From Syntrophobacter sp. SbD2 (GTDB taxonomy: Bacteria; Desulfobacterota; Binatia; UBA9968), in assembly GCA_945889495.1 (NCBI GenBank), contig CAMDBU010000025.1, positions 1-45,814 on the forward strand: a DNA stretch of 45,814 nucleotides, written 5' to 3'. The first letter of the stretch is position 1; every line of letters begins with the position of its first letter. Of this stretch, positions 7,941 to 31,282 are shown one piece after another. The translations under genes were made by a program, and so were the position numbers. Below the pieces are notes generated by a model. The model was given only the letters and a program-made list of their open reading frames with translations. It made no database searches and had not been told where the DNA came from.

Positions 7941-8041
7941 GATGTCCTCGCGCTTCCTGTAATCAATATTCCAATTTCCGCACTCTGTGATCTCCGTGCG
8001 CTCCCTAGAAAATACAAATGAGCCGGCAGGTCTCCTTTATT

Positions 8042-9656: not shown

Positions 9657-9762
9657 CTCGACTGTCTAAATGCGCATGGCGCGACGGTGTCGACCTGAGT
9701 CATGGTGAATTCGCCGAGTCAGTTCACGGGCACAAAGAAATTCACCCAGCACTTTTGCTTCC

Positions 9763-11004: not shown

Positions 11005-11015
11005 GAGCGGCAACC

Positions 11016-12005
11016 ATGAACTACTTATTTTTATTGGCACTAATCATGAGCGCCCTGCCGCGCACCGCGTCAGCCGCCGCCCTGGAGAAAATCAACGCCA
11101 GCTACGGCGCCATCTCCGGCTCCATGGCGCAAACTTGGGTGGCCAAGGAGGCGAAACTTTTTGAGAAGCACGGCCTCGACGTCAATCTGGTCTACATCTC
11201 CGGCGGCCCGCGCAGCATCATGTCGCTGATCGGCGGCAGCGTCCAGTTCGTCAACCACTCCGGCATGCCGGCGTTGGAGGCTTACCAACGGGGCGCCGAC
11301 ACCGCCCTGATCGCCACGCCGATGAACCAATTGGAACATTCGCTGGTGGTGCAAAAGAGTATTGTGAACACCGAACAGCTGCGCGGCAAGGTCCTCGGCA
11401 TGAGCACCCAGGGTTCATTGACCGATATCCTGCTGCGCGAAGGCTTGCGCCTGAACAACATCGCCGAGAAAGATGTCACCATCCTGCCGGTGGGCGATCT
11501 CGGCGCGCGCTTGAGCGGCTTGCAGACCGGCAGAATTCACGGCGCCATCATCGCCGGCATCCAGACCCTGACCGCCAACAAGCTGGGCTTTCGCACCTTG
11601 ATCGATTACTCCAAACTGCCCATCGAAATCGCCGGCTCCGGCATCCTGGTGCGCCGCTCTTACGTATCGAAGAACCCGGACATCACTTCGCGCTTTCTCA
11701 AAGCCTGGATCGAAGGCTTGTATCTTTTCAAAGCCAAACCCGACTTCGCCTTCACGGTCTTGAAAAAATACGTCGCCACCCAGGACCAAGAAGTGCTGAC
11801 GACGATCTACAATCTTTACAAAGAACGGCTGACCTATAAGCCGACGCCGACCACGAACGTCGCCAAGTCGATGCTCTACCTGCTGTCGCGCTCAAGCCCG
11901 CAAGTCGCCGGCGCAAGCGCCGAAGGCTTCATCGAAGCCCGTTATGTGAATGAGTTAGAAAATTCCGGCTTCTTCGAAGAGATGGGCCGGCTGTACGGCA
12001 GGTAG
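11016..12005 (+). CDS. NMT1/THI5-like periplasmic substrate-binding protein
   Basis: A 329-residue protein with a signal peptide (cleavage near TASA-A, about residue 20) and the two-lobed SsuA/THI5/NMT1-like binding fold: INASYGAISGSMAQTWVAKE at the start of the mature part, then GLDVNLVYISGG, GGSVQFV, and LRGKVLGMSTQGS. The C terminus FIEARYVNELENSGF is shared in pattern with the other binding proteins in this window. AGGAGCGG precedes the ATG. No ABC permease or ATPase is nearby; instead an MFS gene ends 11 bp upstream. Ligand unknown (nitrate, sulfonate, pyrimidine or aromatic acid are known ligands of relatives). Confidence 0.88.
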   Translation: MNYLFLLALIMSALPRTASAAALEKINASYGAISGSMAQTWVAKEAKLFEKHGLDVNLVYISGGPRSIMSLIGGSVQFVNHSGMPALEAYQRGADTALIATPMNQLEHSLVVQKSIVNTEQLRGKVLGMSTQGSLTDILLREGLRLNNIAEKDVTILPVGDLGARLSGLQTGRIHGAIIAGIQTLTANKLGFRTLIDYSKLPIEIAGSGILVRRSYVSKNPDITSRFLKAWIEGLYLFKAKPDFAFTVLKKYVATQDQEVLTTIYNLYKERLTYKPTPTTNVAKSMLYLLSRSSPQVAGASAEGFIEARYVNELENSGFFEEMGRLYGR

Positions 12006-12013
12006 CTTCCATC

Positions 12014-12076
12014 TTCTGACTTCTGACTTCTGACTTCTGACTTCTGACTTCTGACTTCTGACTTCTGACTTCTGAC
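12014..12076. repeat. Tandem heptamer array, nine TTCTGAC units
   Basis: Nine perfect head-to-tail copies of the 7 bp word TTCTGAC, followed at once by GC-rich CCTCAAGCCTCGCGCCTCGC words resembling the repeats near 25168 and 26318. It lies between two converging genes. A 7 bp unit is not divisible by three, so it is probably non-coding, and it would be prone to copy-number change. Confidence 0.95.
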
Positions 12077-12083
12077 TCCCGCC

Positions 12084-13565
12084 TCAAGCCTCGCGCCTCG
12101 CGCCTTTGAACAGCGGCCAAAGCAAAAACACCACAGTCAGCCCAATCAGCACCGCGCAGATCGGCCGGTTGAGAAAAATCATAAAGCTGCCGCGAGAGAT
12201 CAGCAGCGTCTGGCGCAAGGATGTCTCCATGATCGGCCCCAACACCATGGCCAGGATGAACGGCGCGCCTTCGTAGCCGACTCGGCGCAGGAGAAAGCCG
12301 ATAACGCCGAAGGCGAGCATGATGACGATCTCGGCGACGTTAGCGTTGAGGCTGTAGACGCCGATCAAACAGAACAGCAGAATCAACGGAAACAGTATCG
12401 CGTAGGGCGTCTTCAACAGCTTCACCCAGATGCCGATGAGCGGTAGGTTCAACACCAGCAGCATGGCGTTGCCGACGTACATGCTGGCGATGAAGCCCCA
12501 GAAGAGCTCGGGATATTTGGCGATGAACAGCGGCCCGGGCTGGATGCCGTGGATCATCAGCGCGCCCATGAATAGCGCCATGATCGCGCTGGTGGGAATG
12601 CCCAACGACAGCAACGGAATGAACGAGCCGGCGGTGGCGGCATTGTTGGCCGCTTCCGGCCCGGCGACGCCTTCGATGACGCCGGTGCCGAATTTTTCTG
12701 GATAGCGCGACAAGCGTTTCTCCATGGCGTAGGAAACAAACGACGCGATCACCGGCCCAGGGCCGGGAAGAATGCCGAGAAAAAATCCTACCACCGAGCC
12801 GCGCGCGATCGGCGCCGCGCTGTCGCGCCAATCTTGCCGGTTGGGCAGCAAGCCTTGGATCTTGGTTTCATAAACCGATTGGCCGCCGAGGACGATGAGA
12901 TTTTCCAACACCTCGGCGATGCCGAACAGTCCCATGGCCACCGGAACCAGGCCAAAGCCGTCGCGCAGCGTCAGCGTGCCGTAGGTGAAACGCTCCTCGC
13001 CCGAAATCGGGTCCATGCCAACGGCGCCGGCGAGTAGTCCCAACACCGCCATGATCAGCGCTTTAGTCATCGAGCCTTGTGACAAGTACGCGACCAAGGT
13101 CAGGCCGGTGAGCGTGAGTGCGAAATATTCCGCCGGACCGAAACTCAACGCCGCGCGGCCGAGCAGCGGCGCCAAAAACATCAAGCCGACCACGCCGACG
13201 GTGCCGGCGATGAACGAACCGAAGGCGGAGATGCCCAACGCCGCGCCTGCACGTCCCTGACGCGCCATTTTGTAGCCGTCGAGGCAAGTGACCACCGAGG
13301 CGGTCTCGCCGGGGATGTTGACCAGGATTGAAGTCGTCGAGCCGCCGTACATGGCGCCGTAATAAATCCCGGCGAGCATGATGATCGCGCTGGCCGGCTC
13401 CATCTTGAAGGTGATCGACAGGAGAAACGCCACCGCGCCCACCGGTCCGAGCCCCGGCAGGACGCCGACCAGCGTGCCGACCAACGCGCCGATGAAGCAG
13501 AACAATAAGTTCATCGGCGTCAACGCCACCGACAAACCGAGGGCGAAATTATGCAACAGCTCCAC
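12084..13565 (-). CDS. tctA: Tripartite tricarboxylate transporter, large membrane subunit TctA
   Basis: A 493-residue protein with about twelve hydrophobic segments and TctA hallmarks: GTLVGVLPGLGPVGAVAFLL, IYYGAMYGGSTTSILVNIPG, GFFLGILPGPGPVIASFVSY and SLGIPTSAIMALFMGALMIH. It forms the channel of a secondary, ion-gradient-driven importer for carboxylic acids. Its ATG follows the TctB stop by 1 bp, so translation is coupled. It is the last gene of the tctC-tctB-tctA operon. Length and organisation are canonical. Confidence 0.95.
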   Translation of the reverse strand: MELLHNFALGLSVALTPMNLLFCFIGALVGTLVGVLPGLGPVGAVAFLLSITFKMEPASAIIMLAGIYYGAMYGGSTTSILVNIPGETASVVTCLDGYKMARQGRAGAALGISAFGSFIAGTVGVVGLMFLAPLLGRAALSFGPAEYFALTLTGLTLVAYLSQGSMTKALIMAVLGLLAGAVGMDPISGEERFTYGTLTLRDGFGLVPVAMGLFGIAEVLENLIVLGGQSVYETKIQGLLPNRQDWRDSAAPIARGSVVGFFLGILPGPGPVIASFVSYAMEKRLSRYPEKFGTGVIEGVAGPEAANNAATAGSFIPLLSLGIPTSAIMALFMGALMIHGIQPGPLFIAKYPELFWGFIASMYVGNAMLLVLNLPLIGIWVKLLKTPYAILFPLILLFCLIGVYSLNANVAEIVIMLAFGVIGFLLRRVGYEGAPFILAMVLGPIMETSLRQTLLISRGSFMIFLNRPICAVLIGLTVVFLLWPLFKGARREA

Positions 13566-13566
13566 G

Positions 13567-14022
13567 CTAGATTCCTAAAATCCCCGCCGGCAGCGGCACG
13601 CCGAGAAGCCAGGCGAAGAGTCCGTAGGTCAGCGCTGAAGTCGCCAGCGCGACGATGAATACTTTCGACCAGCTCGGCGCTTCGATGGCGCGCAGCAGCA
13701 GTACCATGAGCGCAAAGGTCGCGAGCAAAAATCCCAGCCATTCAAGTACAAGAGCAAAGCCCAGCATGATCGCTAGCGTCGCACCGATGCGCAGCCAAGC
13801 TTCGCTCGGAATGCGCGCCGCAGCGGTGGCGGTCTCGGCTTGACGCAACGCGCGCACCAGCTCGACCACTGTGAGCAGCGCCAATAAGACAGCCAAAGCG
13901 CGCGGGAAAAAACCGGTCTGGGGCACGCGGAAATTGCCGATGCGAAGTTGGTTCGCCGCCAGCAAGACATAGCCGGCGAGTCCGGCGAGCAGCGCCGCGG
14001 CGATGATTTCCAATCGTTTCAT
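13567..14022 (-). CDS. tctB: Tripartite tricarboxylate transporter, small membrane subunit TctB
   Basis: A 151-residue protein with four predicted membrane helices, of the size and layout of TctB: MKRLEIIAAALLAGLAGYVL, then RVPQTGFFPRALAVLLALLT, ATLAIMLGFALVLEWLGFLL and a last pair around IVALATSALTYGLFAWLLGV. The start at 14022 is chosen because the upstream extension has a soluble, arginine-rich sequence that overlaps the preceding gene. It lies between tctC and tctA, 25 bp after the former. Confidence 0.9.
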   Translation of the reverse strand: MKRLEIIAAALLAGLAGYVLLAANQLRIGNFRVPQTGFFPRALAVLLALLTVVELVRALRQAETATAAARIPSEAWLRIGATLAIMLGFALVLEWLGFLLATFALMVLLLRAIEAPSWSKVFIVALATSALTYGLFAWLLGVPLPAGILGI

Positions 14023-14047
14023 GCGTAGGGCGGCGGCCGGCAACGAA

Positions 14048-15016
14048 CTATTGAGAAATCTTCGCGGCGCGCGCCACTTCGCCCCACTTGCGCTCTTCCT
14101 CGGCGAGAAATTTCGCAAACTCAGCGGGGCCGAGATTTTCGATCAAGGCTTGCGCCTTCTCGATGTTTGCTACCACCTCGGCGTCTTTCAAACTTTCGTT
14201 GATCGCCGCCGCCAGCCGTTTCACCGCCGCCGCCGGCGTCTTGGCCGGCGCGAAGAAGCCCACCCAGACTTTCAAGTTGAGTTCGGGATGGCCCTTCTCG
14301 ACGGTGGTGGGAATGTTAGGAAAGTCTTTCAAGCGCCGGTTCGACGCCACCGCCAACGCGCGCAACGTGCCGGCTTCGACATGGCTGCGCGTGGTGCCGA
14401 GAGTGAGAAACGCGACGTTGACATGGCCGCCCAACACCGCCGTCGCCGCCGCCGACTCAGAGCCCAGCGGCACATGGGTCATCTCGATGCCGGTTTTCAA
14501 CTTCACTAGCTCGCCAATAAAGTGCGGCGTGGTGCCCGGGCCGGCCGAGCCGTAGGTCAGCTGGCCAGGACTTTTTTTCGCCTCGGCGATGAACTCTTCC
14601 AAGCTTTTCCACGGCGCGTCGCTCTTCACCACCGTGGTGTTGGGGCTGCTGGTGGCGAGCCCGAGCGGCGTGAAGTCTTTCAACGTGAAACCGGAATTCT
14701 TGTTGACGATGGGAATCAGCGCAATCGGCGGCGGCGTGACCAAGATCGTATAGCCGTCCGGCGCCGCGTCCTTGGCGGCCTGAATGCCAACCGCGCCGCC
14801 GCCGCCAGCTTTGTTGACGATTACCACCTGCTGTCCCAAGGACGCCGACAGTTTAGGCGCCATCAGGCGCGCCACGATGTCGGTCACCGCGCCGGGCGGA
14901 AACGGATTGATGATTTGAATCGTCTTAGTTGGATACTGCGCCGAGCTTTGGGGAACCGCGCACAACAGCACCGCCGCCATGATGAACATGATGAAATTGA
15001 ATTTTGCCTTCGACAT
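14048..15016 (-). CDS. tctC: Tripartite tricarboxylate transporter substrate-binding protein (Bug/TctC family)
   Basis: A 322-residue protein with a signal peptide (cleavage near QSSAQ at about 27) followed by the Bug-family start YPTKTIQIINPFPPGAVTDI, then GQQVVIVNKAGGGGAVG, KDAAPDGYTILV and GTTPHFIGELVK. It would capture a carboxylate in the periplasm and deliver it to TctA/TctB. The ATG at 15016 has GGAGAG seven bases upstream and starts with a proper signal, so the longer frame was discarded. First gene of the operon; a divergent promoter region separates it from the decarboxylase genes at 15164. Confidence 0.93.
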   Translation of the reverse strand: MSKAKFNFIMFIMAAVLLCAVPQSSAQYPTKTIQIINPFPPGAVTDIVARLMAPKLSASLGQQVVIVNKAGGGGAVGIQAAKDAAPDGYTILVTPPPIALIPIVNKNSGFTLKDFTPLGLATSSPNTTVVKSDAPWKSLEEFIAEAKKSPGQLTYGSAGPGTTPHFIGELVKLKTGIEMTHVPLGSESAAATAVLGGHVNVAFLTLGTTRSHVEAGTLRALAVASNRRLKDFPNIPTTVEKGHPELNLKVWVGFFAPAKTPAAAVKRLAAAINESLKDAEVVANIEKAQALIENLGPAEFAKFLAEEERKWGEVARAAKISQ

Positions 15017-15163
15017 GATGCCTCTCCAGTCAAAAACTGTCGCGATCAATTCGCCACGCTGCATTCCCTGCTAACAGACTCGCCGGGGAAGTGTCAATCT
15101 TTTCTCCGCGCGCCTTGACAGCTTGCGCTAGGTTGCCTAGAACCGAGCCGAGGTTAATTGCAT

Positions 15164-15658
15164 ATGGGAACCATCGCGGGAGCGCAAAATATTTTAGCCG
15201 GATTGAAAAATTCCGGCATCGACCTGATCGCCAGCGTGCCAGACATCAACATGCTCCAGCTGCTCAATCTGCTCTACGAAGACAAGGACATCGCCCATGT
15301 GCCGGTGGGGCGCGAGGAGGAAGGCATCGGGGTTTGCACCGGGGCCCATCTGGCCGGCAAATTTCCCGCCATGCTGATGCAGAACGGCGGTCTGCTCAAT
15401 AGCGCCAACGGGCTCACCACCACGGCGCTGCAATTCGGCATCCCAGTCGTGCTCATGATCTACTACGCCGGCGACATCGGCGACAACGCCTTTCACATGG
15501 TCGGCCTGGTCACCGAGCCAGTGCTCCAAGGCTTGGGCATCAAATACATCGTCATGCGCGATCCGGCCAAAGTCCAGCAAGACATCGCCGGCGCGGTGAC
15601 CTTGGCCAATTCATCCAAACGGCCGGTGGCGCTGCTGCTCACCCGCGCCGTGCTCTAA
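15164..15658 (+). CDS. ThDP-dependent decarboxylase, alpha (PYR) subunit; sulfopyruvate/phosphonopyruvate decarboxylase-like
   Basis: A 164-residue protein equivalent to the N-terminal pyrimidine-binding domain of ThDP enzymes: NILAGLKNSGIDLIASVPDI, then VPVGREEEGIGVCTGAHLAG, where the Glu cluster at 51-53 supplies the cofactor-activating glutamate, and MLMQNGGLLNSANGLTTTAL. The cofactor's diphosphate domain is in the next gene, 12 bp downstream, so the enzyme is a two-subunit form like ComD/ComE. It would decarboxylate a 2-oxo acid. The ATG at 15164 is preferred over a TTG at 15158 because of GAGG ten bases upstream. Exact substrate is not predictable. Confidence 0.85.
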   Translation: MGTIAGAQNILAGLKNSGIDLIASVPDINMLQLLNLLYEDKDIAHVPVGREEEGIGVCTGAHLAGKFPAMLMQNGGLLNSANGLTTTALQFGIPVVLMIYYAGDIGDNAFHMVGLVTEPVLQGLGIKYIVMRDPAKVQQDIAGAVTLANSSKRPVALLLTRAVL

Positions 15659-15670
15659 ACGAGGTTTACG

Positions 15671-16285
15671 ATGAAACGTTTCGAATGTCTGCAAGCGATC
15701 GCGCCGCTAATCAAGGACGAACTGTTCGTCACCACCGCCGGCGGCGCGACCAATGAATGGAACGCCGTGCGCCCGAGCGACGGCAACATCCAGGTGAAAA
15801 CCCTCGGTCTCTGCTCGTCCATCGGCTTGGGCCTGGCCATCGGCCTGCCCAAACGCAAAGTATTCGTCTTCGACGGCGACGGCGCGCTGTGGATGAATCT
15901 CGGCTCCCTGGCGACCATCGGCCTACACCAGCCGAAAAATTTGATTCACATCCTCTGGGACAACAAACAATACGAGTCGTCGGGCGGCGAACCGACGGTG
16001 GCCACCGCCGGCACCATTGATTTTGCCGGTATTGCCAAAAGCGCGGGAATCAAAAACTCACGAGCGGTGGGTACAGTCGACGAACTGAAAGACGCCGTGA
16101 GTTTTGCATTGAATAACGACGGGCCCCACTTCATCGCCGCCAACATCGAAGCCGGCCGCGCCGAAGTGCCGCCGCTCAAGTACGACGAGCTGGAAAATAA
16201 ATATCACTTCATCCGCTACGTCGAAGACACCGAGGGCAAGAGCATCCTGCGCCTACCGCAGTCGGCCAGCTACCTGTTGAAATAA
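15671..16285 (+). CDS. ThDP-dependent decarboxylase, beta (PP) subunit
   Basis: A 204-residue protein equivalent to the C-terminal ThDP domain. The diphosphate/Mg-binding motif starts at GDG (69-71) in VFVFDGDGALWMNLGSLATI and ends at N98 in HILWDNKQYESSGG, the classic GDG-x(26-27)-N spacing. The upstream ACGAGGTTTACG gives a ribosome-binding site. It pairs with the alpha subunit gene just upstream, and both would be needed for activity. Relatives include sulfopyruvate and phosphonopyruvate decarboxylases, but no coenzyme M or phosphonate genes are in the window, so the substrate is probably different. Confidence 0.87.
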   Translation: MKRFECLQAIAPLIKDELFVTTAGGATNEWNAVRPSDGNIQVKTLGLCSSIGLGLAIGLPKRKVFVFDGDGALWMNLGSLATIGLHQPKNLIHILWDNKQYESSGGEPTVATAGTIDFAGIAKSAGIKNSRAVGTVDELKDAVSFALNNDGPHFIAANIEAGRAEVPPLKYDELENKYHFIRYVEDTEGKSILRLPQSASYLLK

Positions 16286-16296
16286 CCGCGCGCCGT

Positions 16297-16716
16297 CTAC
16301 TGGCCGGCAAATTGCCGCCCCAGGATCTCGGTCAGCAGCCGCAATAAGTCGCCGTTCTCGCCGACGTACAGCACCAACAGACTGCCCTGTTTGAAAAAAT
16401 GCGGCGCGCCGATCCAATGAATCTTTGCGGTTCCCACCGTGCCACCATCGGGTGAAATGCGTGTTGCCTGCGCGTCCATTTGCACCTCGCTCAGGTAAGC
16501 GAACAGTTGCACGTCCTCGCCGTTCACTTGAACCATCGAACCGATCACCGAGATAAACGGCTGCTCAGCCTCTCCCACCGTTTCGACAATGGCGCCGCGT
16601 GCGCGCAGCGCGTCGAGCCAGTGATCGATGGCACTCGCTTCCGGGCGCGAAATCGCCGGAGCGCAGGCCGCAATGGCTAAAACAATCAAAGCTGCAAAGC
16701 GCCGGAAGTACTTCAT
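16297..16716 (-). CDS. Predicted lipoprotein of unknown function
   Basis: A 139-residue protein with a lipoprotein signal: MKYFRRFAALIVLAIAAC, cysteine at position 18 after a hydrophobic run ending AIAA. The mature part carries a beta-rich region (IVETVGEAEQPFISVIGSMV, QVNGEDVQLFAYLSEV) and a short segment, LLVLYVGENGDLLRLLTEIL, near the end. No family was recognised. AGGGGATGTG precedes the ATG at 16716. It lies head-to-tail behind the metalloprotease-like gene but a strong intrinsic terminator separates them. Confidence 0.75.
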   Translation of the reverse strand: MKYFRRFAALIVLAIAACAPAISRPEASAIDHWLDALRARGAIVETVGEAEQPFISVIGSMVQVNGEDVQLFAYLSEVQMDAQATRISPDGGTVGTAKIHWIGAPHFFKQGSLLVLYVGENGDLLRLLTEILGRQFAGQ

Positions 16717-16724
16717 CACATCCC

Positions 16725-16764
16725 CTAAAAACAACGAGGGGTAGGACCTGCGCCCTACCCCTCG
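16725..16764 (-). terminator. Intrinsic terminator downstream of the metalloprotease-like gene
   Basis: Read on the minus strand: an 11 bp perfect stem, CGAGGGGTAGG paired with CCTACCCCTCG (16754-16764 with 16735-16745), an 8-base loop, and a T-rich tail TTGTTTTTAG. It lies 34 bp past the protease stop and just before the lipoprotein start, so the lipoprotein needs its own promoter or read-through. Confidence 0.85.
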
Positions 16765-16797
16765 CGATTTGACTAATGCTTGCGCTGACTGGAACGA

Positions 16798-17646
16798 TTA
16801 CTCAGCCCAAATGACATGGGTAATCATTTTCTGACCGCGGCCGAGGTCGAGTTCATAACTCTCAGTCCGCCCGTTATTGGTCGAACGCACCAACTTGCCC
16901 CACTGGGAAGTGCCCCGATGTTCCGGTTCGTCGGCGTTCCCCCGCTCGTGCGCAGCCATTGCGTTACCAGCGGCAACCGTTTGCGCCACGGTGGTGCTGC
17001 TATCGGTGTGCGAATAAATCGTTATCAGTTGGTCGTAGTCATGCCCGTTGGGGTATTCGTTACTCAACTGATCGGGATTCGCCAAAGTGCCGCTCGGATC
17101 GTTGGTGTAATCCATGCAGGTGCCCAAGTTGGGGTTCGAAAAAGTTTCGTCCTGGTGATCCAGCCCAAAAGCATGACCGACTTCTTGACACATCACCAGG
17201 CGGCGCCACGCTGGCGTGTTGTAGGTTGCTGTATTGAAGTACGTGTCGTTGAGCTTAACCGTTGCCTGCGTGATATGGTCGCCGTTAGCCCAGATCGACG
17301 CGACGCCGAGCCAGCCGTTGTTACCGTAAGTGGTATTGCAGACTTCGACCCTCCCCGCGGTCGGAAGGCACCTTCTGAGATTCCCGCTGGCTCCGCCAGC
17401 AACAATCGAGAGATCGAGCTTGGTCGATTCAGTCCAATCGGGATGTAAAGCGCTGCCGGCAATTTCCAAAAGGTAGGGATCCCAAGCGCCAGACACATTG
17501 TCGCCGAGCTTGAGCGTGAAAGAAGCGGTCGTGCGCGCCCAGTGATAGTTTCCCCACGAATGATTCGCCTGCACGCGCGTCGGCAGCGCCGCAAGTGCCA
17601 TTAGTAACAGCGCGGCGATCCCACCGCGGTAGTCGATCTTTGCCAT
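16798..17646 (-). CDS. Secreted matrixin-like protein with altered zinc motif
   Basis: A 282-residue protein with a signal peptide (MAKIDYRGGIAALLLMALAA, cleavage near VQA at about 27). The metzincin helix reads CQEVGHAFGLDH (153-164): it keeps the catalytic Glu155 and His158 and His164, but Gln154 takes the place of the first zinc histidine of HExxHxxGxxH. A Met-turn (CMDY, Met178) follows. Many bacterial relatives share the CQE form from memory, so this may be a real subfamily rather than a dead copy. AGGAG precedes the ATG at 17646. It could be a protease using a different third ligand, or a binding protein. Confidence 0.8.
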   Translation of the reverse strand: MAKIDYRGGIAALLLMALAALPTRVQANHSWGNYHWARTTASFTLKLGDNVSGAWDPYLLEIAGSALHPDWTESTKLDLSIVAGGASGNLRRCLPTAGRVEVCNTTYGNNGWLGVASIWANGDHITQATVKLNDTYFNTATYNTPAWRRLVMCQEVGHAFGLDHQDETFSNPNLGTCMDYTNDPSGTLANPDQLSNEYPNGHDYDQLITIYSHTDSSTTVAQTVAAGNAMAAHERGNADEPEHRGTSQWGKLVRSTNNGRTESYELDLGRGQKMITHVIWAE

Positions 17647-17867
17647 AAAATCTCCTCTCGTTTGAAACCGATTAGCTCTCTTCAATGTGCTACAGATTTT
17701 AGACGAGCCGCGCCGCGCAAAGCAACTGCGGGCCGTTGATTTTCACCACATTTTTTTCGCTGAAGGCGCTTTGACGTATTTTCAGGTAAATTTCAGCGCG
17801 GCGTAATTGCACTTCCTCAGTCCAGCCGCTAGATTCCGCTGACGATCAACCCTCCGAGGAGCGACCC

Positions 17868-18866
17868 ATGAAATATCGCATCGCCATACTGAGCGCGGTT
17901 ATTTCGACGCAAATCGTTTTGACTTCGGCCATGGCGCAAACCAAAGTCGCCATCGGCTACAGCGGCATCAGCGCCGACCAGCTGGTCATCTGGGTCGCCC
18001 GCGACGCCGGCATCTTCGCGAAAAACAATCTCGACGCCCAGGCGGTTTATTTTACCGGCGGGACGACTTCGGTGACGGCGATGATCGCCGGCGACACGCC
18101 GCTGATACAAGCCTCCGGTCCCGGCATCGTTAGCGCCGGGCTCGCCGGCGCCGAACCAGTCTACGTCGTCGGCGGCATCACCACGCTGGATTATTGGCTG
18201 ATGAGCCAGCCGGAAATAAAAACCCCGGAACAGTTGAAAGGCGGCACGGTGGCGGTGGCGCGCTTCGGCGGCGCGGCGGATTTCGTCGCTCGCTTCGCCC
18301 TGCCGCGCTTGGGACTGACGCCGGGGAAAGATGTCACCATAGTCCAAACCGGCAGCACGCCGGAACGGCTGGCAGCGCTGGAAGCACGCCGGGTGTCGGC
18401 CAGCACTTTGGTACCGCCGGCGATGTTCGTGGCCCAGAAAAGAGGCTTTCACCTGCTCGCCGATGTCGCCGCGCTAGGCCTGGCCTACCAGCATCAAGGC
18501 GGCGTGACGACGAAGAAATTCCTGCGCGAACATCCCGCGGTGGTGCGCAACTTCGTCAAGTCCTACATCGAAGCGGTGCATCGGCTCAAAACCGACCGCG
18601 CCTTGGGACTGAAAATCGCCGCTAAGTATTTGCGGCTGGAAGATAAAGACCTATTGCAGCGAACCTACGAAAGCTCCATTGAGGAGAAAAAACTACCGGT
18701 GAAACAATACCCCAGCGCCGAGGGCATCAAAACCATTCTGGACGAATTGTCGCTAAAAGACCCAAAAACCAAGAACGCCAAACCGGCTGACTTCATCGAC
18801 GCGCGCTTTGTCGAAGAGTTCGACAAAAGCGGCTACACCGACAGCCTGTACGGACGGAAGAGATAG
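17868..18866 (+). CDS. NMT1/THI5-like substrate-binding protein
   Basis: A 332-residue protein with a signal peptide ending near SAMAQ (about residue 24). The mature part opens TKVAIGYSGISADQLVIWVA, then GIFAKNNLDAQAVYFTGGTT, and carries LKGGTVAVARFGGAADFVAR in the second lobe. The C terminus reads PADFIDARFVEEFDKSGY, the same pattern as the proteins at 11016 and 38004. CCGAGGAGCG precedes the ATG. It is a stand-alone gene facing away from the protease-like gene, followed by a REP element, with no permease or ATPase nearby. Ligand unknown. Confidence 0.88.
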   Translation: MKYRIAILSAVISTQIVLTSAMAQTKVAIGYSGISADQLVIWVARDAGIFAKNNLDAQAVYFTGGTTSVTAMIAGDTPLIQASGPGIVSAGLAGAEPVYVVGGITTLDYWLMSQPEIKTPEQLKGGTVAVARFGGAADFVARFALPRLGLTPGKDVTIVQTGSTPERLAALEARRVSASTLVPPAMFVAQKRGFHLLADVAALGLAYQHQGGVTTKKFLREHPAVVRNFVKSYIEAVHRLKTDRALGLKIAAKYLRLEDKDLLQRTYESSIEEKKLPVKQYPSAEGIKTILDELSLKDPKTKNAKPADFIDARFVEEFDKSGYTDSLYGRKR

Positions 18867-18909
18867 CACAGCCCAGATGATCTGCACCATGCAGCGCCAC
18901 CCGCCCGCT

Positions 18910-18988
18910 CCGTCATACCCGCGAAAGCGGGTATCCAGGCTAATTCGGCGCTGAATAAATCTGGATTCCCGCCTGCGCGGGAATGACA
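18910..18988. repeat. REP-like palindromic element (family C), copy 2
   Basis: The left arm CCGTCATACCCGCGAAAGCG is identical to that of copy 1 at 8042 and continues with the same GGGTATCCAGGCTAAT. The right arm CTGGATTCCCGCCTGCGCGG plus GAATGACA is the inverse complement in outline. The rest of 18867-19125 holds no gene; it separates two converging genes. Confidence 0.85.
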
Positions 18989-19125
18989 TTTCGAGATAAG
19001 CCTGTCGAGAGCAACCCGTCCATCCTCATAACCCGCAGACGAGCTGAAGCTTGTGGTCGCTTGGTGGTAAGGCATTGGCTTCGCCGGAAGGACTGCCGGC
19101 AAGCCATGACGAATCCGACCGCGAA

Positions 19126-22100
19126 CTAATCCTTCAGCCGAATGCCGACCTTCGATAGCCGGTGTTTCCACAGGTCGCGCCGCTCGATGCCCTGCCAGAC
19201 TTCGATCTCATGGCGCGCCAGTTGGGTTTTCTTTTCCTTGAGTTCGGTCATGAGATTTTGAATCAGGCTGTCGCGCGCCTTGAGTAATTCCTCGCGCTCG
19301 CTGAGCAAGGTATCCAAGCCGTTGCTGCCTTCGCTCTCAGCGCCATCCTCGTCGTCTCTCGACATGAGCACCGCCGGCAATTGCGGCCCTCTGGCGCGCG
19401 CTTCCTGGAGTTGCCGCTCCATATGGGCCTTGGCCACTTCGGTTTCGTGCAGTTTCTCGTGCAAGCTAGCGACTTGCTCTCGCATAGTGGCCATCTCGGC
19501 GCTGCCGCTTTCGAGCAACTTATGCTTCTCCGCCAGCTGATGACCGAGCGCCTCCATCTTGCTGGTGAAACGTTCCTCGATCTCGCCGACCGTGGCCTCC
19601 CGTGCTTGCAACAAACTCGACTTATCGCGCATTTCTTCCTGGAGCGCGCGGTCGCTACGCTCTTTCTCCGAAGCGAGCAAGCTGTAGCGCTCGGAAATCT
19701 CCCGCACCTTGTCCATCAGCGCATCGACTTCGGCCTCCCGGGTCGCCATCAGATTGTTCTGCTCGGCGAGGCGGGCCTCGAGGGCAGTCACTTGGCCTTG
19801 CAACTGGCTTTCGAGCTTTTTCAGCGCCATGTCCTTGACCTGGAGGGCCTCGTTGCGCTGGCGCAGCTCTTGGTCGAGCTCGTGGGTGGACTGCTCCTTG
19901 GTGTTGGCCAACAAGTCGATTTCACCGGTCAGTTCTTTTACCTTGGCGCGCAGCATTTCCACTTCGCCAGCGCGGCCATCGAGCAAGCCTTGGCGCTCGG
20001 CCACTTGCGCTTCGATAGCGCGCAGCCGTTCCTCGCCGCGCTTTTCGCTCTCTTTGAGCGCCGCTTCGCGCTGGCGCAGGAGATCTTCTTTCTCCTTGGC
20101 ATCGGCCTGGAACAGCCGCACCGTTTGATCATTGGCGGCATCCAGTTCGGCCAACTGGCGCTTGACCGCGGCGAGCTCGAGCTCACGATCCTTGAGCCGT
20201 TTTTCTTTTTCGCCCAGCGCACCTTCCAAGGCCTGCTGCTTAGCCACCAACGAAGCTTGCAGCTCCTGCACCGCGCTGTCCTTGGTGTCGAGCAGCGCGG
20301 CTTTTTCTTTGAACGCCGCTTCGAGCATTTTCTCGCTCTGCTGTTTGGCCGCGGCCCATTCGCTGGCTTGTTGCTGGGCGATGATCAGTTCGGCGCGCAG
20401 TTCGCTGACCTCGGCGTCGCGGCTGCCGACGAGCTTTTGCCGTTCCGCCAGCTGCTGCTCGAGGACGCTGATCTTGGAGTTGAAATTGGTCTCCAGCTCG
20501 CGTAGCGCCGAGTCGCTGGCGCTGAGGAAGGCTTTCTCCTTGCGCAGTTTTTCTTGCAGCAAGCTGGCCGCGCGCTCCTTGGCCGAGCCGACCTTGTTGA
20601 GCTGCTCGGACACCGACGACAGTTGGCTCTGCAATTGGCCGATCTCGGCGTCGCGCCGTTGCAGCAATTCGTCGCGCTCGCTTACCTGCTGCTGCAAGAT
20701 CTTTAGCTCGCCGGCATAGCGGCCTTCAAGCTCCTTGCCACCGGCCTCGCGGCTTTGGCGTAGTTCGCGCTCCTTGCGCAGTTCGTCCTTAAGTGCCGCC
20801 TCGGTGTGGGCGCTGGCCGCTAGGCTGTCGTCGAGCTTTTGCTTGAGGCCCTGCAGCGCGGTGGTCAGAGAACCAATCTCATCGTCCCGGACGGTGAGAT
20901 ATTCATCCTTCTCGCGCAGCTGCAGTTCCAGTTGGCGCAGCGACTTGCCGTAGCGTTCCTCCAACTCGACGATGGCGGCGGTTTTTTCGTCGGCCACCAA
21001 CCGGCGATTGTTGAGCGCCGCATCGAGCGCTGCCTGGGCCTGATCCTGTGCCGCGTTGGCTTCGGCGATTTTCCCGCCCAGGACATGCACTTCCGACTTG
21101 AGCGCGTTGATCTCATCGTCGCGCACCTGAACGAGCATGTCCCGTTCCTCGATCTGGCTTTGCAGACCGCGAACGTTGGTGCGCAGGCGAATTTCCAAAT
21201 CCTTGAGCGCTCGTTCGCGCGTCTTGCGCTCATCTTCCAGCTCCGCGCGCGTGCTCTCTAGTCGGGCTTCGGATTGTTCCTTGGCGTCGACCGCCGCGCT
21301 CAGCCGCTGCCCCAGCTCCGCGATTTCGCTTGCATGGCCCTTGAGGAGTTTTTCCCGGCCGACGGCTTGGTCTTCCAGCGAGTGGAGCGCCTCTTGAAGC
21401 CGCTTCTCGAGACCGCGCCCGGCGCTATCGCGGGCTTCAAGCAGCTGTTTCTTGTTCTCGATCTCTTTCTGAACCTGCTCCTCGGCGCGCCGGTGGGCCG
21501 CTTCCAATTCCCTGACTTGAATGGCGAACTCGCGGCTTTCGCTCTGGGCGATCTCCAACTCGGCTGCGCGCCGGTGCAACAGGTCTTCCTTGCTCTGCAG
21601 CTGGCTTTCCCACAACCGCGCCTTGCCACTCAACAGCTGGCGTAGCTCGCGCACTTCGGCATCCTTGGCCTGCAGCGTTTCGACGGTTTGCACCAGTTCG
21701 GCACGCAGCGCTTGGTCGCCGCCGCTGCCGCTGAATACAATCGGCCGCGCCGCCGGAGTGCTCGATTTGAGCGCGCGCAACTCGTCCTCGCGCGCCTTGA
21801 GCGCCTGCTCCTTGGCGGTGAGCTCGACGATCATCGACTCGATGCGCTCGATGCTGTCCTCGAGATCGCGGGTCACGCTGTCTTTGGCTTGGCGTGCGGT
21901 GCGGCCTTTCCAAACTTCCTGCTGCAAGGCGTGCTCAGCCTCCGCTTTCGCCGAGTCGAGGGCCTGCACATGCTCCTTGAGCTCGACAATTTGGCTATCG
22001 CGGAACATCTTCAACACGACGACCATAACGATCAAGCCAATGCCCGCGACGACGGCGTAAAACCCGGCGCTAGCGGATTGGCCCGACTCCGCGCTACCGA

Positions 22101-22266
22101 ACATAAAAGCAAATGGCGAAGAGAGGAATTGACGCAGATTGCGAGCAAATAGCCAACGCGTGTAACTGGCCTCGACCTCGTTACTCTGCAATGCGTAGAC
22201 GATGAAGCCGCCGAGGATTAAAGCGGCAACGATGACACCAATGGTGATTTTTTCCCGAGTTCGCAT
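19126..22266 (-). CDS. Giant membrane-anchored coiled-coil protein with 78-residue repeats
   Basis: A 1046-residue protein. Residues 8-26 and about 69-87 are hydrophobic helices separated by a short loop that would face the periplasm; residues 90 to the end form an almost unbroken coiled coil on the cytoplasmic side. Anchor segments of the type ERDELLQRRDAEIGQL begin near 226, 303, 374, 452, 530, 608, 686, 757, 835, 913 and 990. Spacing is 78 residues, with two intervals of 71 (one heptad less) and a last one of 77. Each unit has a second, weaker copy of the same motif in its middle (for example KEDLLRQREAALKESEKR). Residues about 960-985 form an acidic break. No known family; a structural spacer, filament or scaffold anchored to the inner membrane is inferred. 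Confidence 0.88.
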   Translation of the reverse strand: MRTREKITIGVIVAALILGGFIVYALQSNEVEASYTRWLFARNLRQFLSSPFAFMFGSAESGQSASAGFYAVVAGIGLIVMVVVLKMFRDSQIVELKEHVQALDSAKAEAEHALQQEVWKGRTARQAKDSVTRDLEDSIERIESMIVELTAKEQALKAREDELRALKSSTPAARPIVFSGSGGDQALRAELVQTVETLQAKDAEVRELRQLLSGKARLWESQLQSKEDLLHRRAAELEIAQSESREFAIQVRELEAAHRRAEEQVQKEIENKKQLLEARDSAGRGLEKRLQEALHSLEDQAVGREKLLKGHASEIAELGQRLSAAVDAKEQSEARLESTRAELEDERKTRERALKDLEIRLRTNVRGLQSQIEERDMLVQVRDDEINALKSEVHVLGGKIAEANAAQDQAQAALDAALNNRRLVADEKTAAIVELEERYGKSLRQLELQLREKDEYLTVRDDEIGSLTTALQGLKQKLDDSLAASAHTEAALKDELRKERELRQSREAGGKELEGRYAGELKILQQQVSERDELLQRRDAEIGQLQSQLSSVSEQLNKVGSAKERAASLLQEKLRKEKAFLSASDSALRELETNFNSKISVLEQQLAERQKLVGSRDAEVSELRAELIIAQQQASEWAAAKQQSEKMLEAAFKEKAALLDTKDSAVQELQASLVAKQQALEGALGEKEKRLKDRELELAAVKRQLAELDAANDQTVRLFQADAKEKEDLLRQREAALKESEKRGEERLRAIEAQVAERQGLLDGRAGEVEMLRAKVKELTGEIDLLANTKEQSTHELDQELRQRNEALQVKDMALKKLESQLQGQVTALEARLAEQNNLMATREAEVDALMDKVREISERYSLLASEKERSDRALQEEMRDKSSLLQAREATVGEIEERFTSKMEALGHQLAEKHKLLESGSAEMATMREQVASLHEKLHETEVAKAHMERQLQEARARGPQLPAVLMSRDDEDGAESEGSNGLDTLLSEREELLKARDSLIQNLMTELKEKKTQLARHEIEVWQGIERRDLWKHRLSKVGIRLKD

Positions 22267-22570
22267 AGCTCTCTACATTCGTTAAAACGCCAAAATTCGA
22301 CCGGACAAGATGCCATCATTGTAACGTCTGGGAGCGCGATTGCCAAAGAAAATTCCCGGGCAATTCGCAAGCAAATGGGGCGCTTGGGAAAGAAAGGCGA
22401 GAATCTTACCAAAACTACGGCGCGACCCGCCGGATTGTCGTGATTTTTAGTTCACACGAGGGCGGAATAGAACGCCCGCCAGCAATCACAGCGGTGGCGA
22501 GGTTGGCGAAATGCCAGCCGCTATGTCAGCCGTTGGGTTGCTCTGGCCATTGTTGTCCAAAACGAACGAT
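22267..22570. other. Intergenic region between the coiled-coil and hydroxyacid oxidase genes
   Basis: 304 bp with no credible gene on either strand. Both neighbours are on the minus strand, so the part near 22270-22440, which is comparatively AT-rich, probably holds the promoter of the coiled-coil gene, and the part near 22560 is the 3' flank of the oxidase gene. No clear terminator hairpin with a T-tract was found. Confidence 0.35.
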
Positions 22571-23641
22571 TTACAGCGGCGGGACTCTGACGATGGCGCT
22601 GGCGTCGATGCTGGCGATGGTCGGCCGGCCGCACTTGGCCATGGTGATTTCAATTTCTTCGCGCAATAAATTAAGTACCCGCACCACGCCCTGCTCGCCG
22701 CCCACAGCCAGCCCCCAAAACAGCGGCCGGCCGATGAATACCGCCTTCGCACCGAGAGCGATCGCTTTGACGACATCGGCGCCGCGGCGAATGCCACCGT
22801 CGAGATAAACTTCCATCTTACCTTTGGCCGCCGCCACCGCTTCGCTGAGCACTTCGACGGTCGCCAGAGTGTTGTCGAGATGGCGCCCGCCATGGTTGGA
22901 AACGATCACGCCGTCGGCGCCGACTTGGGCGCAGAGCTCGACATCTTCACCGGTCATGATGCCCTTGGCGACCACCGGCAAACGGGTCGCCGCCTTGATC
23001 CACTCCAGGTCTTTCCAAGTCGCCGCCGGGTCCGAGCCGGCGCCGCTGCCGGCGGGACGCGGCGCGTCGGGATGTTCGCCGCCGACGGGATAGTTGGCGC
23101 CGCGGGTGCGCTGATAGCGGTTGCGAATGTTGCGTTCGCGCTTGGGCGGCCATTGGGAATCGAGCGTGACGATGATCGCTTTGTACCCATTGGCCTGGGC
23201 GCGGTCGAGCCAGTCTTGGGTCATCGCTTTGTCGCGGAACGGATAGAGCTGCACCCACAACATACCGTCAGCCGCCTTGGCGAGATCTTCGAACGAAGTA
23301 TTGGCGTTGGCGCTCACCGCCATCGCCGTGCCACAGCTGGCCGCGGCCCGATAGGTGGCAAGCTCGCCGTCGGGATGGGCTCGCTTGTGGCCGCCGCAGG
23401 GAGCGATCAGCACCGGTAGGGCGACTTTGCTGCCCAACACCGTGGTCGACAGATCGAGCTTGCTGACATCGCGCAAGACCCGCGGCCGAAATGCCCAGGA
23501 CGCGTAGGCGCGCCGGTTACGGTCAACGCTGATCTCGTCCGTCGCGCCACCGGCGATATAGTCATACTCCGCCTTGGGCAAAACCTCTCTGGCGGCGTCT
23601 TCGAATTCGAAAAGATTGATCGGTTGTGGGCTGTCGGCCAT
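22571..23641 (-). CDS. FMN-dependent alpha-hydroxy-acid oxidase/dehydrogenase
   Basis: A 356-residue TIM-barrel flavoprotein of the glycolate/L-lactate oxidase family. It would oxidise a 2-hydroxy acid to the 2-oxo acid. Signatures are YDYIAGGATDEISVDRNRRA near 26-45, LPVLIAPCGG near 75-84, the catalytic lysine/His/Arg set K226 (VVAKGIM), H250 and R253 (VIVSNHGGRHLDNT), and the phosphate-binding end VYLDGGIRRGADVVKAIALG with AVFIGRP. Length is canonical. GGAG precedes the ATG. It follows the 83-residue gene by 21 bp and is likely co-transcribed. The soluble form, with no membrane segment, suggests an oxidase or a soluble dehydrogenase. Confidence 0.92.
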   Translation of the reverse strand: MADSPQPINLFEFEDAAREVLPKAEYDYIAGGATDEISVDRNRRAYASWAFRPRVLRDVSKLDLSTTVLGSKVALPVLIAPCGGHKRAHPDGELATYRAAASCGTAMAVSANANTSFEDLAKAADGMLWVQLYPFRDKAMTQDWLDRAQANGYKAIIVTLDSQWPPKRERNIRNRYQRTRGANYPVGGEHPDAPRPAGSGAGSDPAATWKDLEWIKAATRLPVVAKGIMTGEDVELCAQVGADGVIVSNHGGRHLDNTLATVEVLSEAVAAAKGKMEVYLDGGIRRGADVVKAIALGAKAVFIGRPLFWGLAVGGEQGVVRVLNLLREEIEITMAKCGRPTIASIDASAIVRVPPL

Positions 23642-23662
23642 AAAAACTCCGAAGTTATTTTT

Positions 23663-23914
23663 CTACTGCTTCGCCTTGAGCTGTTGGTCGTTGGCCTTGA
23701 GAAAGTCGCGGATCTCGTCGGCCTGATCGAGCAATCGATTCCACTGCTCTTTGTAGAGCGTCACCGGGAATCGCCCCAGGCCGTAAATCGACAGCCCGCC
23801 CTTTTCGCTGACCTTCAAACGCAGCTCGCCGGGCTTGCGCTCGACCTGTTGTTTCAACGCTTGATTTTCGGCTTCGAGCCGCGCCAGTTTCGCTTCGATG
23901 GATTCTTCCGCCAT
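23663..23914 (-). CDS. Small conserved-looking cytoplasmic protein
   Basis: An 83-residue protein with an N-terminal coiled coil (EAKLARLEAENQALKQQVER), then a short beta region LRLKVSEKGGLSIYGLGRFP and a helical end. The ATG at 23914 is chosen because GGGAGGAACT lies directly upstream; the longer frame to 23944 would start before that site. I recall similar 'GLSVYGLGRFPVTLY' proteins in environmental Deltaproteobacteria but cannot name a family. It heads the operon with the hydroxyacid oxidase gene. Confidence 0.7.
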   Translation of the reverse strand: MAEESIEAKLARLEAENQALKQQVERKPGELRLKVSEKGGLSIYGLGRFPVTLYKEQWNRLLDQADEIRDFLKANDQQLKAKQ

Positions 23915-24079
23915 AGTTCCTCCCGCTGATTTCGTCTTGGCCACCTTCTATCGCAAAGCCGGCGACAACGCGAGGGCGGAGCGCCAATCGGCTTGAACCC
24001 GACAGTAAAGTCGGACTATAAGAAGGGTCAAGGCAGCGTTAAGAATTTTTCCAAAAACACTTTCGGGAGGAAATCTAAA

Positions 24080-25165
24080 ATGAGCGCAAATCTAGGCACC
24101 AGAATCATCGACGGCGACGGTCATATCATGGAAGACAACGCCGGCATCATCGCCCATATGGAGGGCACCTATCGGGACATCGCCGCGCGCAAGGGCACCT
24201 GCTTTCCGCCGCTGGACCATCTCCACTCCGGCCGTGCCGTGGAGACCCCACCCCAGCGCGACGGCCGCCCACCGGTGGGACCGAAGGGCTGGCTGGAATT
24301 TCTCGACGACATCGGCATCGACTGGACGGTCATGTATCCCACCCTGGCGCTCTCCTACGGTAAGATCGTCAGCCTCGATTACGCCGTGGCGGTGTGCAAA
24401 GGCTACAACAATTGGCTCGCTGAGACTTATTTGAAAGCCAACCCGCGCTTCAAGAGCATGGCGATCATCCCCATGCAGGACCCGCAAGAAGCAGCCAAGG
24501 AGCTGCGCCGCGCGGTCACCGAATTAGGGTTTTTAGGCGCCATGATGCCGTCCAACGGTCTGTCCCAGCCGCTCGGAGCCAAACAGTTTTGGCCGATCTA
24601 CGAAGAGGCCAATCGCCTCGGCTGCTGTCTCGCCGTCCATGGCGGCGCCCATGACCGCTTCGGCATGGATCACATGAACATGTACGTGCCGGTGCACGCC
24701 TTGGGTCATCCCTGGGGCTTGACGATCAACTGCGCCGATATTCTCTACAACGGCATCTACCAGCGCTTCCCGCGCGTGCGCATCGCTTTTTTAGAAGGCG
24801 GTATCGCTTGGTTCCTGCTCTTGCTCGAACGGCTCCACGCTTCCCATGAGACCCACTTTCAACATATTCCAGAAGGCGAATTCGGCGTGCGCGAAGGCCA
24901 GGACCCAACCAAGGAATTGAAAAAGCTGGTCAAGGACGGCCGCATCTATCTCGGCATCGAGACCGAGGAGCTGACCATGCCCTTCGCCATCAAAATCGTC
25001 GGCAACTCACCGTTTCTTTATTCCTCCGACTTCCCCCATGAAGTCACCCACGAGAGCTGCAAGCATGACATCGGCGAATTGATGGAGAGTGACGAGATCA
25101 CTGCCGACGACAAAGCCGCCATGCTGTGGCGCAACGCCGAGAATTTTTACAAGCTGCCGCTGTAA
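24080..25165 (+). CDS. Amidohydrolase-2 family metal-dependent hydrolase/decarboxylase
   Basis: A 361-residue TIM-barrel enzyme with the family's N-terminal metal motif in RIIDGDGHIMEDN, a middle histidine in LAVHGGAHDRFG and CGALGHPWGL-like region (VHALGHPWGL), a late segment VRIAFLEGGIAWFLLLLERL, and the C-terminal catalytic Asp in LYSSDFPHEV. Relatives act as aromatic-acid decarboxylases or hydrolases of ring-cleavage products. The ATG at 24080 has GGGAGGAAATC upstream; a longer frame to 23993 was rejected. It is followed by an alcohol dehydrogenase gene on the same strand. Confidence 0.88.
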   Translation: MSANLGTRIIDGDGHIMEDNAGIIAHMEGTYRDIAARKGTCFPPLDHLHSGRAVETPPQRDGRPPVGPKGWLEFLDDIGIDWTVMYPTLALSYGKIVSLDYAVAVCKGYNNWLAETYLKANPRFKSMAIIPMQDPQEAAKELRRAVTELGFLGAMMPSNGLSQPLGAKQFWPIYEEANRLGCCLAVHGGAHDRFGMDHMNMYVPVHALGHPWGLTINCADILYNGIYQRFPRVRIAFLEGGIAWFLLLLERLHASHETHFQHIPEGEFGVREGQDPTKELKKLVKDGRIYLGIETEELTMPFAIKIVGNSPFLYSSDFPHEVTHESCKHDIGELMESDEITADDKAAMLWRNAENFYKLPL

Positions 25166-30253: not shown

Positions 30254-31282
30254 TCAGTTTTCCATCAAGGGCTTCAACCGCTGAATGGTATCCGCCGACG
30301 GCACGCCGGCGTCTTTGATCAGCGCTTCGAGATCTTCGCCGCTGAGCGGCGTGACATCGAGCCCCTTCTTTTTCGCCTCGGCGACAAGCTCCGCATCGGC
30401 CATCATTTTGTTGAAGCCGTCGCGCAAGATTTTCAAACGATCCGCCGGCATCCCCGGTGGACCGAACAGCGGCCGGCCCATGTCGTCGGGGATGAGCAGG
30501 ATCTTCGCCAAGCGGCGGTAATTCTCGCTAGTTTTATTCTTGTCCATCAATTCCCAAAGGGTCGGCACGCTGGCCATGCGTGGATCGCGCTTGGCGCCGC
30601 CCTGAACCAACACCCGGGCAAAGCCGGTCTTGGACCAAGTGCGTAGCGGCTCGCTGCCGAAGTAGGCCTGCACCGTGCCGCTGAAACAATGCACTTCGCC
30701 CTTCTCGATGGCGAGATTGACGTCGGCGGCGCCGGGATAGCCGGGCACGAGGGTTAGCTTGAGGCCGAAAGCGTCCTGCAACAGTCGCGGGAAATAATAG
30801 GCCGAGCTGCCGATGCCGGTGGAGCCGCAGCGCGGCGTCTCGGCCACGGTGCGCATGTCTTCGAGATTTTTGATGCCCAAATCGGCGCGCATGTAGAAAA
30901 TCCGGTCGGTCTTCTCCGGCGAGCCGATGAAGCTAAACTTGAACCAGTCGTACTGGACCTCTTTTTTGCCGGTCACCTGCTCGATGTACATCGCCGGGCT
31001 AACCACGCCGAGGGTCAAGCCATCGGGCTTGGCCAAGCCGTAAATATAATTCGCCGCTACCATCGACCCGCCACCGGTCATGTTCTGCACAACAAACGTC
31101 GGATTGCCGGGAATGAAGCGGCCCAGATGGCTGGCGATCACCCGCGCCCAGACATCGAACGCACCGCCGGCGGCGAAGCCGACGCGGATCTGCACGGTCT
31201 TGCCTTGGTAGAAGGGCGTCTGGGCCGCAACCGGTGAAACCACGATCAGACAAATAAGTAGCAATAGCAAAAATCTTTTCAC
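30254..31282 (-). CDS. Bug/TctC-like tripartite transporter substrate-binding protein
   Basis: A 342-residue protein with a signal peptide (MKRFLLLLLICLIVVSPVAA, cleavage before QTPFYQG). The mature part follows the Bug pattern, FYQGKTVQIRVGFAAGGAFD, then FVVQNMTGGGSMVAANYIYG and KPDGLTLGVV. It is diverged from the tctC at 14048. No TctA/TctB genes accompany it, so it is an orphan binding protein that may use the membrane subunits at 12084-14022 or elsewhere. GGAAG precedes the ATG. Confidence 0.87.
   Translation of the reverse strand: MKRFLLLLLICLIVVSPVAAQTPFYQGKTVQIRVGFAAGGAFDVWARVIASHLGRFIPGNPTFVVQNMTGGGSMVAANYIYGLAKPDGLTLGVVSPAMYIEQVTGKKEVQYDWFKFSFIGSPEKTDRIFYMRADLGIKNLEDMRTVAETPRCGSTGIGSSAYYFPRLLQDAFGLKLTLVPGYPGAADVNLAIEKGEVHCFSGTVQAYFGSEPLRTWSKTGFARVLVQGGAKRDPRMASVPTLWELMDKNKTSENYRRLAKILLIPDDMGRPLFGPPGMPADRLKILRDGFNKMMADAELVAEAKKKGLDVTPLSGEDLEALIKDAGVPSADTIQRLKPLMEN

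Follow-up and report, generated by a model that had tools for sequence, protein, structure and literature searches.

What does an exact period of 78 residues mean in a coiled-coil protein, when 78 is eleven heptads plus one? The question is raised by a gene of Syntrophobacter sp. SbD2 (assembly GCA_945889495.1) on contig CAMDBU010000025.1, positions 1 to 45,814 of which constitute the window analysed here (45,814 nucleotides). The gene encodes a 1046-residue protein, referred to below as the rod, and a preliminary description of it proposed a long coiled coil of fixed length, with two N-terminal membrane helices, belonging to an unnamed family. The rod is a member of a new protein family that is seen in a single lineage and is built from an unusual, exact coiled-coil module; its function we infer.

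The 78-residue unit and its hydrophobic stripe

The mean BLOSUM62 score of residues 91-1046 against themselves at a lag of 78 is 0.62, and the highest score at any lag from 8 to 319 in 600 shuffles (200 of single residues, 200 of seven-residue blocks and 200 of 14-residue blocks) is -0.15. The 78-residue period first proposed therefore holds. The protein contains nine clear units, two of 71 residues and the rest of 78, followed by a partial unit (Table 1). Leave-one-out unit profiles recognise all nine units above shuffled coiled coils, with scores of 34.6-74.2 bits that none of 200 heptad-phase and none of 200 block-of-seven shuffles matches for any unit, subject to a small leak in that the nine units were aligned jointly before the profiles were built. 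Weak unit-like stretches of 26.7 and 14.9 bits lie between membrane helix 2 and residue 225. The 71-residue intervals had been explained as the deletion of one heptad, which is confirmed by a gap at unit columns 17-23, where 17 to 21 of the 72 family units described below are gapped. The anchor positions given previously stand, except that the first unit starts at residue 225, so that the anchor at 226 is one residue late. Two intervals of 71 residues likewise stand, but the single interval of 77 does not agree with the anchor list itself, which contains two (226-303 and 913-990). The interval 226-303 is a register slip and measures 78 once corrected. The stretch 913-990 was rejected as a full unit, as it crosses a predicted hinge and unit similarity stops at residue 958, before the hinge.

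A family set of 72 units scoring more than 40 bits was assembled from 14 reading frames, which represent 13 proteins, that of genome G003 being split over two frames; the search covered 16 sequences, of which two yielded no unit above this score. In the hydrophobicity profile of the 72 units, the dominant component lies at 78/22 = 3.545 residues. The hydrophobic stripe of the window protein (residues 91-959) peaks at the same period, with half-height at 3.539-3.552 and a power of 10.0 at 3.545, 0.1 at 3.500, and 0.0 at both 3.643 and 3.667; the maximum in 100 shuffles of residues 96-981 is 1.6. Nine of ten family sequences tested peak at 3.540-3.548. Read at 3.545, the phase stays within about 31 degrees across ten successive 78-residue segments (169-948), despite the two 71-residue units, whereas a reading at 3.5 gives an average slip of about 104 degrees per segment over the same span. 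The stripe is coherent along most of the rod, not all of it.

A 78-residue unit is 22 turns, or eight heptads plus two hendecads, while 71 residues are 20 turns and 74 residues are 21. As each length is a whole number of 3.545-residue turns, the units are phase-neutral modules without a regular break. The preliminary description had taken eleven heptads plus one as a built-in phase shift that breaks the supercoil once per unit, and this was rejected on the comparison of the slip at 3.5 with the spread at 3.545. By the reasoning in the accessible part of PMC9858780, a period of 3.545 would give a left-handed supercoil that is weaker than a pure heptad coil. The core layers of the unit contain conserved charged residues, at R9/D10 and K55/D56.

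An internal half-repeat exists within the unit, as had been suggested, but at an offset that does not fit the proposed ancestor of about 39 residues. Self-comparison of the unit profile gives a best cyclic offset of 32 (equivalent to 46), with a score of 0.15 against -0.02 at offset 39. The local self-comparison agrees, its top match at 32 scoring 25.3, ahead of 17.5 for the runner-up, and pairing unit columns 41-67 with 73-78 plus 1-21. A 39-residue half-repeat was rejected on these scores, and a symmetrical ancestor of that length lacks support. Three proteins of the sampled genomes look alike by eye (G018, L033 1282-2742; G021, L051 886-2535; G024, L052 886-2364), each having a hydrophobic N-terminus, with four segments by hydropathy in G018, and then a coiled coil. 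In the G018 protein the top period, 32 residues, coincides with the offset of the half-repeat in rod-family units.

Relatives, array evolution and selection

Orthologues possessing both the N-terminal hairpin and the conserved C-terminal tip are present in G003 (two contigs), G005, G008, G010, G014, G015 and G017, all of the same taxonomic family, and such genes occur in eight of the 25 genomes of the family, the window's included. The lineage is probably Binatota/Binatia; according to PMC8262859, RDP assigns Binatota 16S genes to the unclassified Deltaproteobacteria. A tip profile (E <=0.001) matches 11 of 148 genomes of the class, all among these 25, and none of the 123 class genomes outside the family. 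The same eight genomes match at E <=2.3e-32, G013 at 1.1e-10, and G021 and G024 at 6e-4 and 9.7e-4. The matches in G021, G024 and G005 (contig C276), with E-values of 4e-4 to 1e-3, cover about 35 residues and were excluded from the family count; those of G021 and G024 are regarded as chance coiled-coil matches. A unit profile (E <=1e-8) matches nine of the 148 genomes, namely the same eight and G013. In a 395-genome sample of the phylum, with at most 15 candidates scored per genome, the tip profile matches the window's own genome only, and tip relatives were found neither in viral contigs (E <=1e-3) nor in plasmids (E <=0.01). A whole-protein search of the window's genome (5.64 Mb, 239 contigs, E <=0.001) returned nothing besides the rod itself. 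Only sub-threshold or generic coil matches were obtained in Pfam, NCBIfam and PHROGs, where the family is indeed unnamed; among solved structures, the unit profile has no match at E <=0.01 and the best E-value for the tip is 0.14.

G013 encodes soluble proteins of the rod-family unit, with about one to five units and no predicted membrane helix in the five examined. Several short G013 proteins carry the unit or the tip (L029, L030, L031, L034, L035 and L053), some ending in a common DPFE-like tail and others in a tip variant. A second hairpin-bearing copy in G005 has a C-terminus that is, by eye, unlike the tip.

The proposed fixed length does not extend across species. Orthologues measure 568 (G014), 704 (G017), 713 (G010), 714 (G005), 865 (G008) and 877 residues (G015), with the start codons of G014 and G005 inferred, and the longest are those of the window (1046) and G003 (about 1126, by arithmetic). 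These homologues of different repeat number keep the unit spacing. Measured at column 41, 63 of 78 unit spacings are 78, 71 or 74 residues, the other 15 consisting of five of 77, two of 70, one double spacing (151), one of 124 in G018 and six single values.

A FastTree phylogeny was constructed from the 72 units, listing clades with support of at least 0.8 and at most 14 members. Units tend to group by position and not by protein: the first full unit (5 units, 0.99), the last short unit (4 units, 1.00) and the second unit (6 units plus two interior copies, 0.94) each form a clade. Only orthologues of genera other than the window's, six in all, contribute to these positional clades, and the units of the window and G003 instead pair with each other (five pairs, support 0.87-0.97). 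Spacing opens 77-71-78 in four of the six (G015, G008, G005 and G010), 79-70-78 in G014 and 68-71-78 in G017, with a variable array middle; the window and G003 open differently. G003 has three adjacent units that are 54-58% identical to their neighbour where the window appears to have two. These adjacent copies and the unit tree support growth of the arrays by duplication, a suggestion made earlier that is sustained for whole units. A molecular ruler, in which unit number sets an exact distance measured by the cell, would account for the exact module lengths, the phase-neutral insertions and end units that are orthologous by position around a variable middle. However, length varies about two-fold within one family and differs even within one genus, between the window and G003, which makes a ruler very improbable.

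The ratio of non-synonymous to synonymous substitution rates (dN/dS) of the rod is 0.27 for G017/G010 and 0.32 for window/G003b (690 codons, 44% identity), the latter with a dS of 1.65 that is near saturation. Four neighbouring genes of the window/G003 pair have ratios of 0.05, 0.14, 0.09 and 0.06, placing the rod 2.3- to 6.4-fold above them. Values well below 1 indicate that the rod is under purifying selection. The high ratio relative to the neighbours, together with low rod identity and the dispensability discussed below, would suit a simple fast-evolving spacer that is selected only to stay helical and carry the tip, with no selection on length or surface. Against this, units keep their positional identity across genera, charges are conserved in the core layers and dN/dS remains well below 1, and so such a spacer is improbable.

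Membrane anchor, conserved tip and probable role

The window protein and the seven orthologues whose N-terminus is available all have two hydrophobic N-terminal helices, which confirms by hydropathy the membrane helices first described. Two to three of the six residues before helix 1 and at least three of the twenty after helix 2 are basic in these eight proteins, a positive-inside pattern that softly suggests an N-in/C-in topology. The cytoplasmic location proposed earlier is thereby plausible, and no firmer. AlphaFold2 models were produced for the C-terminal 212 residues (eight sequences) and the N-terminal 230 residues; as single-chain models, they carry no information on oligomeric state. 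The C-terminal model (mean predicted local distance difference test (pLDDT) score 86.6) consists of a single helix over residues 836-959, a disordered hinge and a helix to about residue 1039. The N-terminal model has a helix over membrane segment 1, a less confident loop, and a long helix (65-169) that starts at membrane segment 2. Long helices are thus predicted for both ends, in agreement with the long rod first described. Beyond the hinge, the 64-residue tip is the most conserved part of the protein: 22 of its 64 columns are invariant in eight sequences and its identity to the window is 58-78%, compared with 29-43% for the whole protein against orthologues (longest segments listed). The conserved tip is therefore argued to be the binding end.

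Because the conserved tip and the hairpin are combined with a long rod, a membrane-anchored tether or scaffold is judged the most likely role, and the protein is probably an inner-membrane-anchored, cytoplasmic and most likely dimeric coiled-coil rod of this kind; we infer the dimer, the topology, the tethering and the existence of a partner. The two-helix hairpin would anchor the rod in the inner membrane, and the helical body of phase-neutral modules would reach about 130-140 nm into the cytoplasm, at the rise of 0.1485 nm per residue of a coiled-coil rod on which lengths here are based. Past the short hinge, the basic tip may bind a putative partner, such as the envelope machinery, the nucleoid or another membrane site. 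As each module is a whole number of 3.545-residue turns, the seam and the tip could keep their orientation when modules are gained or lost, and length would evolve while both ends keep their function.

Several observations weigh against the tether or scaffold. The topology reading is soft, since 2-5 basic residues also fall in the loop between the membrane helices, and confidence in the N-terminal model is no more than moderate (mean pLDDT 73.5). The stripe is out of phase in segments 91-168 and 949-1026, peaks at 3.530 in G015 (which has 73- and 74-residue spacings) and is weak in G014 (power 3.0 against 1.5 for shuffles). The flanking genes are metabolic and partly conserved, with no partner, operon or functional neighbour seen. 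The rod is also absent beside its flanking genes in G002, G007 and G012, where neither the tip nor the unit is matched. Given these three genomes, the rod gene is dispensable, yet selected where present. Absence is unsafe for G001, where contigs C20 and C62 start near both sides of the expected place, and uncertain for G020 (its contig ends in the neighbouring flavin mononucleotide (FMN)-dependent dehydrogenase gene) and G023 (a 3.2-kb contig). Bactofilin and MreB are matched in all 25 family genomes, and presence of the rod therefore cannot be correlated with either.

The loop residues and the softness of the topology leave some room for the opposite orientation, a periplasmic rod spanning or lining the envelope. 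The basic residues that flank the helix pair oppose this orientation, and a periplasm roughly 20 nm wide is too narrow to hold a rod of about 140 nm upright; a periplasmic rod is the least probable arrangement of those weighed here. A cytoskeletal filament former, with rods packed laterally in a lattice that resembles intermediate filaments and is attached to the membrane, and with the stagger set by the repeat, would explain the regular repeated surface, and the soluble G013 paralogues could co-assemble with it. Pfam Filament (PF00038) matches two of eight family members (best E 1.2e-5, which may be a coiled-coil cross-match) but not the window protein at E <=1. The order of 71-, 74- and 78-residue units differs between orthologues, which would spoil a regular stagger, and charge along the unit varies most strongly at short periods, its six leading components lying at 2.1-2.5 and 6-6.5 residues; a filament former is thus unlikely. 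A spectrin-like modular strut, in which insertions and deletions of positional 22-turn modules in the array middle tune the reach from anchor to tip and short soluble paralogues pair or cross-link, is a tentative possibility. Rods of different length with the same ends form a natural series in which to ask whether length is functional.

Locus and known architectures

The features of the gene are collected in Table 1.

Table 1. Position of the rod gene and its parts in the window
Feature	Window position	Strand	Basis
Whole gene, 1046-residue membrane-anchored coiled-coil rod (predicted)	19126..22266	minus	Open reading frame, orthologues, dN/dS
Membrane helix 1, residues 7-25	22192..22248	minus	Kyte-Doolittle mean 2.51 over 19 residues
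Membrane helix 2, residues 67-85	22012..22068	minus	Kyte-Doolittle mean 2.60
Unit 225-302, 78 residues	21361..21594	minus	Unit profile and register
Unit 303-373, 71 residues, one heptad missing	21148..21360	minus	Unit profile and register
Unit 374-451, 78 residues	20914..21147	minus	Unit profile
Unit 452-529, 78 residues	20680..20913	minus	Unit profile
Unit 530-607, 78 residues	20446..20679	minus	Unit profile
Unit 608-685, 78 residues	20212..20445	minus	Unit profile
Unit 686-756, 71 residues, one heptad missing	19999..20211	minus	Unit profile and register
Unit 757-834, 78 residues	19765..19998	minus	Unit profile
Unit 835-912, 78 residues	19531..19764	minus	Unit profile
Partial unit 913-958	19393..19530	minus	20.8 bits
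Predicted disordered hinge, residues 960-979	19330..19389	minus	AlphaFold2 pLDDT <50, residues 126-145 of the 212-residue C-terminal model
Conserved 64-residue C-terminal tip, residues 983-1046, mostly helical, basic	19129..19320	minus	Alignment of 8 sequences; helix predicted to about residue 1039

The gene context indicates no function for the rod. In the window, G003, G015 and G017, no more than about 5 kb separates the rod from divergent amidohydrolase and alcohol dehydrogenase genes, and this link is not seen at the other four orthologues within the stretches available. In G002, the orthologue of window 2843-3973 adjoins the amidohydrolase orthologue, without the rod, and G007 and G012 possess flanking genes on a longer contig, also without the rod. 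The genomic place of the rod is partly ancestral. Most orthologous neighbouring genes are 71-90% identical, with only 58-61% for a small gene at 13567-14118.

At the G002 place (L065 11493-14166), little sequence separates the orthologues of window 2843-3973 and 23993-25165, and about 19.7 kb including the rod (window ~3974-23650) are missing, which may reflect either an insertion or a deletion. Two genera have an FMN-dependent dehydrogenase gene next to the rod (window 22571-23641; L027 6873-7973; 71% identity), though not on the same side. A thiamine-pyrophosphate enzyme is split into N and C halves in open reading frames 15158-15658 and 15671-16285, both with G010 relatives, and a single-gene version of this type lies at 39087-40895. 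Five reading frames match the same substrate-binding proteins of other loci (11016-12005, 17868-18866, 38004-39023, 42305-43309 and 43433-44458), of which 17868-18866, the only one scanned, is NMT1-like in Pfam. TctA/TctC-type genes are present at 12084-13565, 14048-15064 and 30254-31282. A small reading frame at 23663-23944 with a coiled-coil-like start is divergent from the amidohydrolase gene and is overlapped by 23655-23987 in another frame.

Neither a 78-residue coiled-coil repeat family of this kind nor the 22-turn module of eight heptads and two hendecads was found described among the literature matches listed, from a search that subscription papers mostly fell outside. The module is a possible design part for a weakly supercoiled rod to which each added unit would contribute about 11.6 nm (78 x 0.1485 nm) with the ends left unrotated. 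Named coiled-coil families were also compared with the rod. SMC_prok_B scores 33.4 bits against a cut-off of 567.35, with its best stretch at profile positions 223-499 of 1181, and Pfam finds no ATPase domain in the window protein; an SMC/Rad50 identity was rejected as far under the cut-off and without ATPase heads. Matches to SMC, Fib_alpha and Filament were set aside as probable coiled-coil cross-matches.

TipN, a pole marker of Caulobacter, resembles the rod in combining two membrane helices at the N-terminus with a long coiled coil, and is not known to have a repeat of this type. Walshaw reportedly described a 51-residue repeat of FilP/Scy of actinobacteria in 2010. According to the accessible part of PMC9858780, FilP and Scy are long bacterial rods that mix hendecads with heptads and expand by coiled-coil repeats, features that recall the rod. 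Unlike them, the rod has its stripe at 3.545 with zero power at 3.643 and 3.667, and so is not hendecad-dominated; its N-terminus is a membrane hairpin where FilP and Scy, of the DivIVA-like superfamily, have a DivIVA-like domain, and Pfam DivIVA is matched neither in the window protein nor in eight family members. Crescentin and intermediate filaments (PMC10873595) are likewise long coiled-coil rods; the window protein has no Filament match at E <=1. The growth pole ring protein GPR of Agrobacterium, of 2,115 residues, has two predicted N-terminal membrane helices, a continuous cytoplasmic helix of 1,700 residues and a C-terminus reported to be essential (PMC8262873, accessible part). GPR also forms hexamers and a ring at the growth pole, and polar growth depends on it. 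The rod shares the two predicted N-terminal membrane helices and the very long helical body, and its own C-terminus is its most conserved part. The rod has a tandem repeat, whereas 'repeat' is unmentioned for GPR in the accessible part of that article, and GPR has apolipoprotein domains (PF01442) that are unmatched in the window protein (E <=1) and in eight family members (11 families at E <=0.01). The rod fails membership on these apolipoprotein domains, but of the architectures compared here GPR is the nearest.

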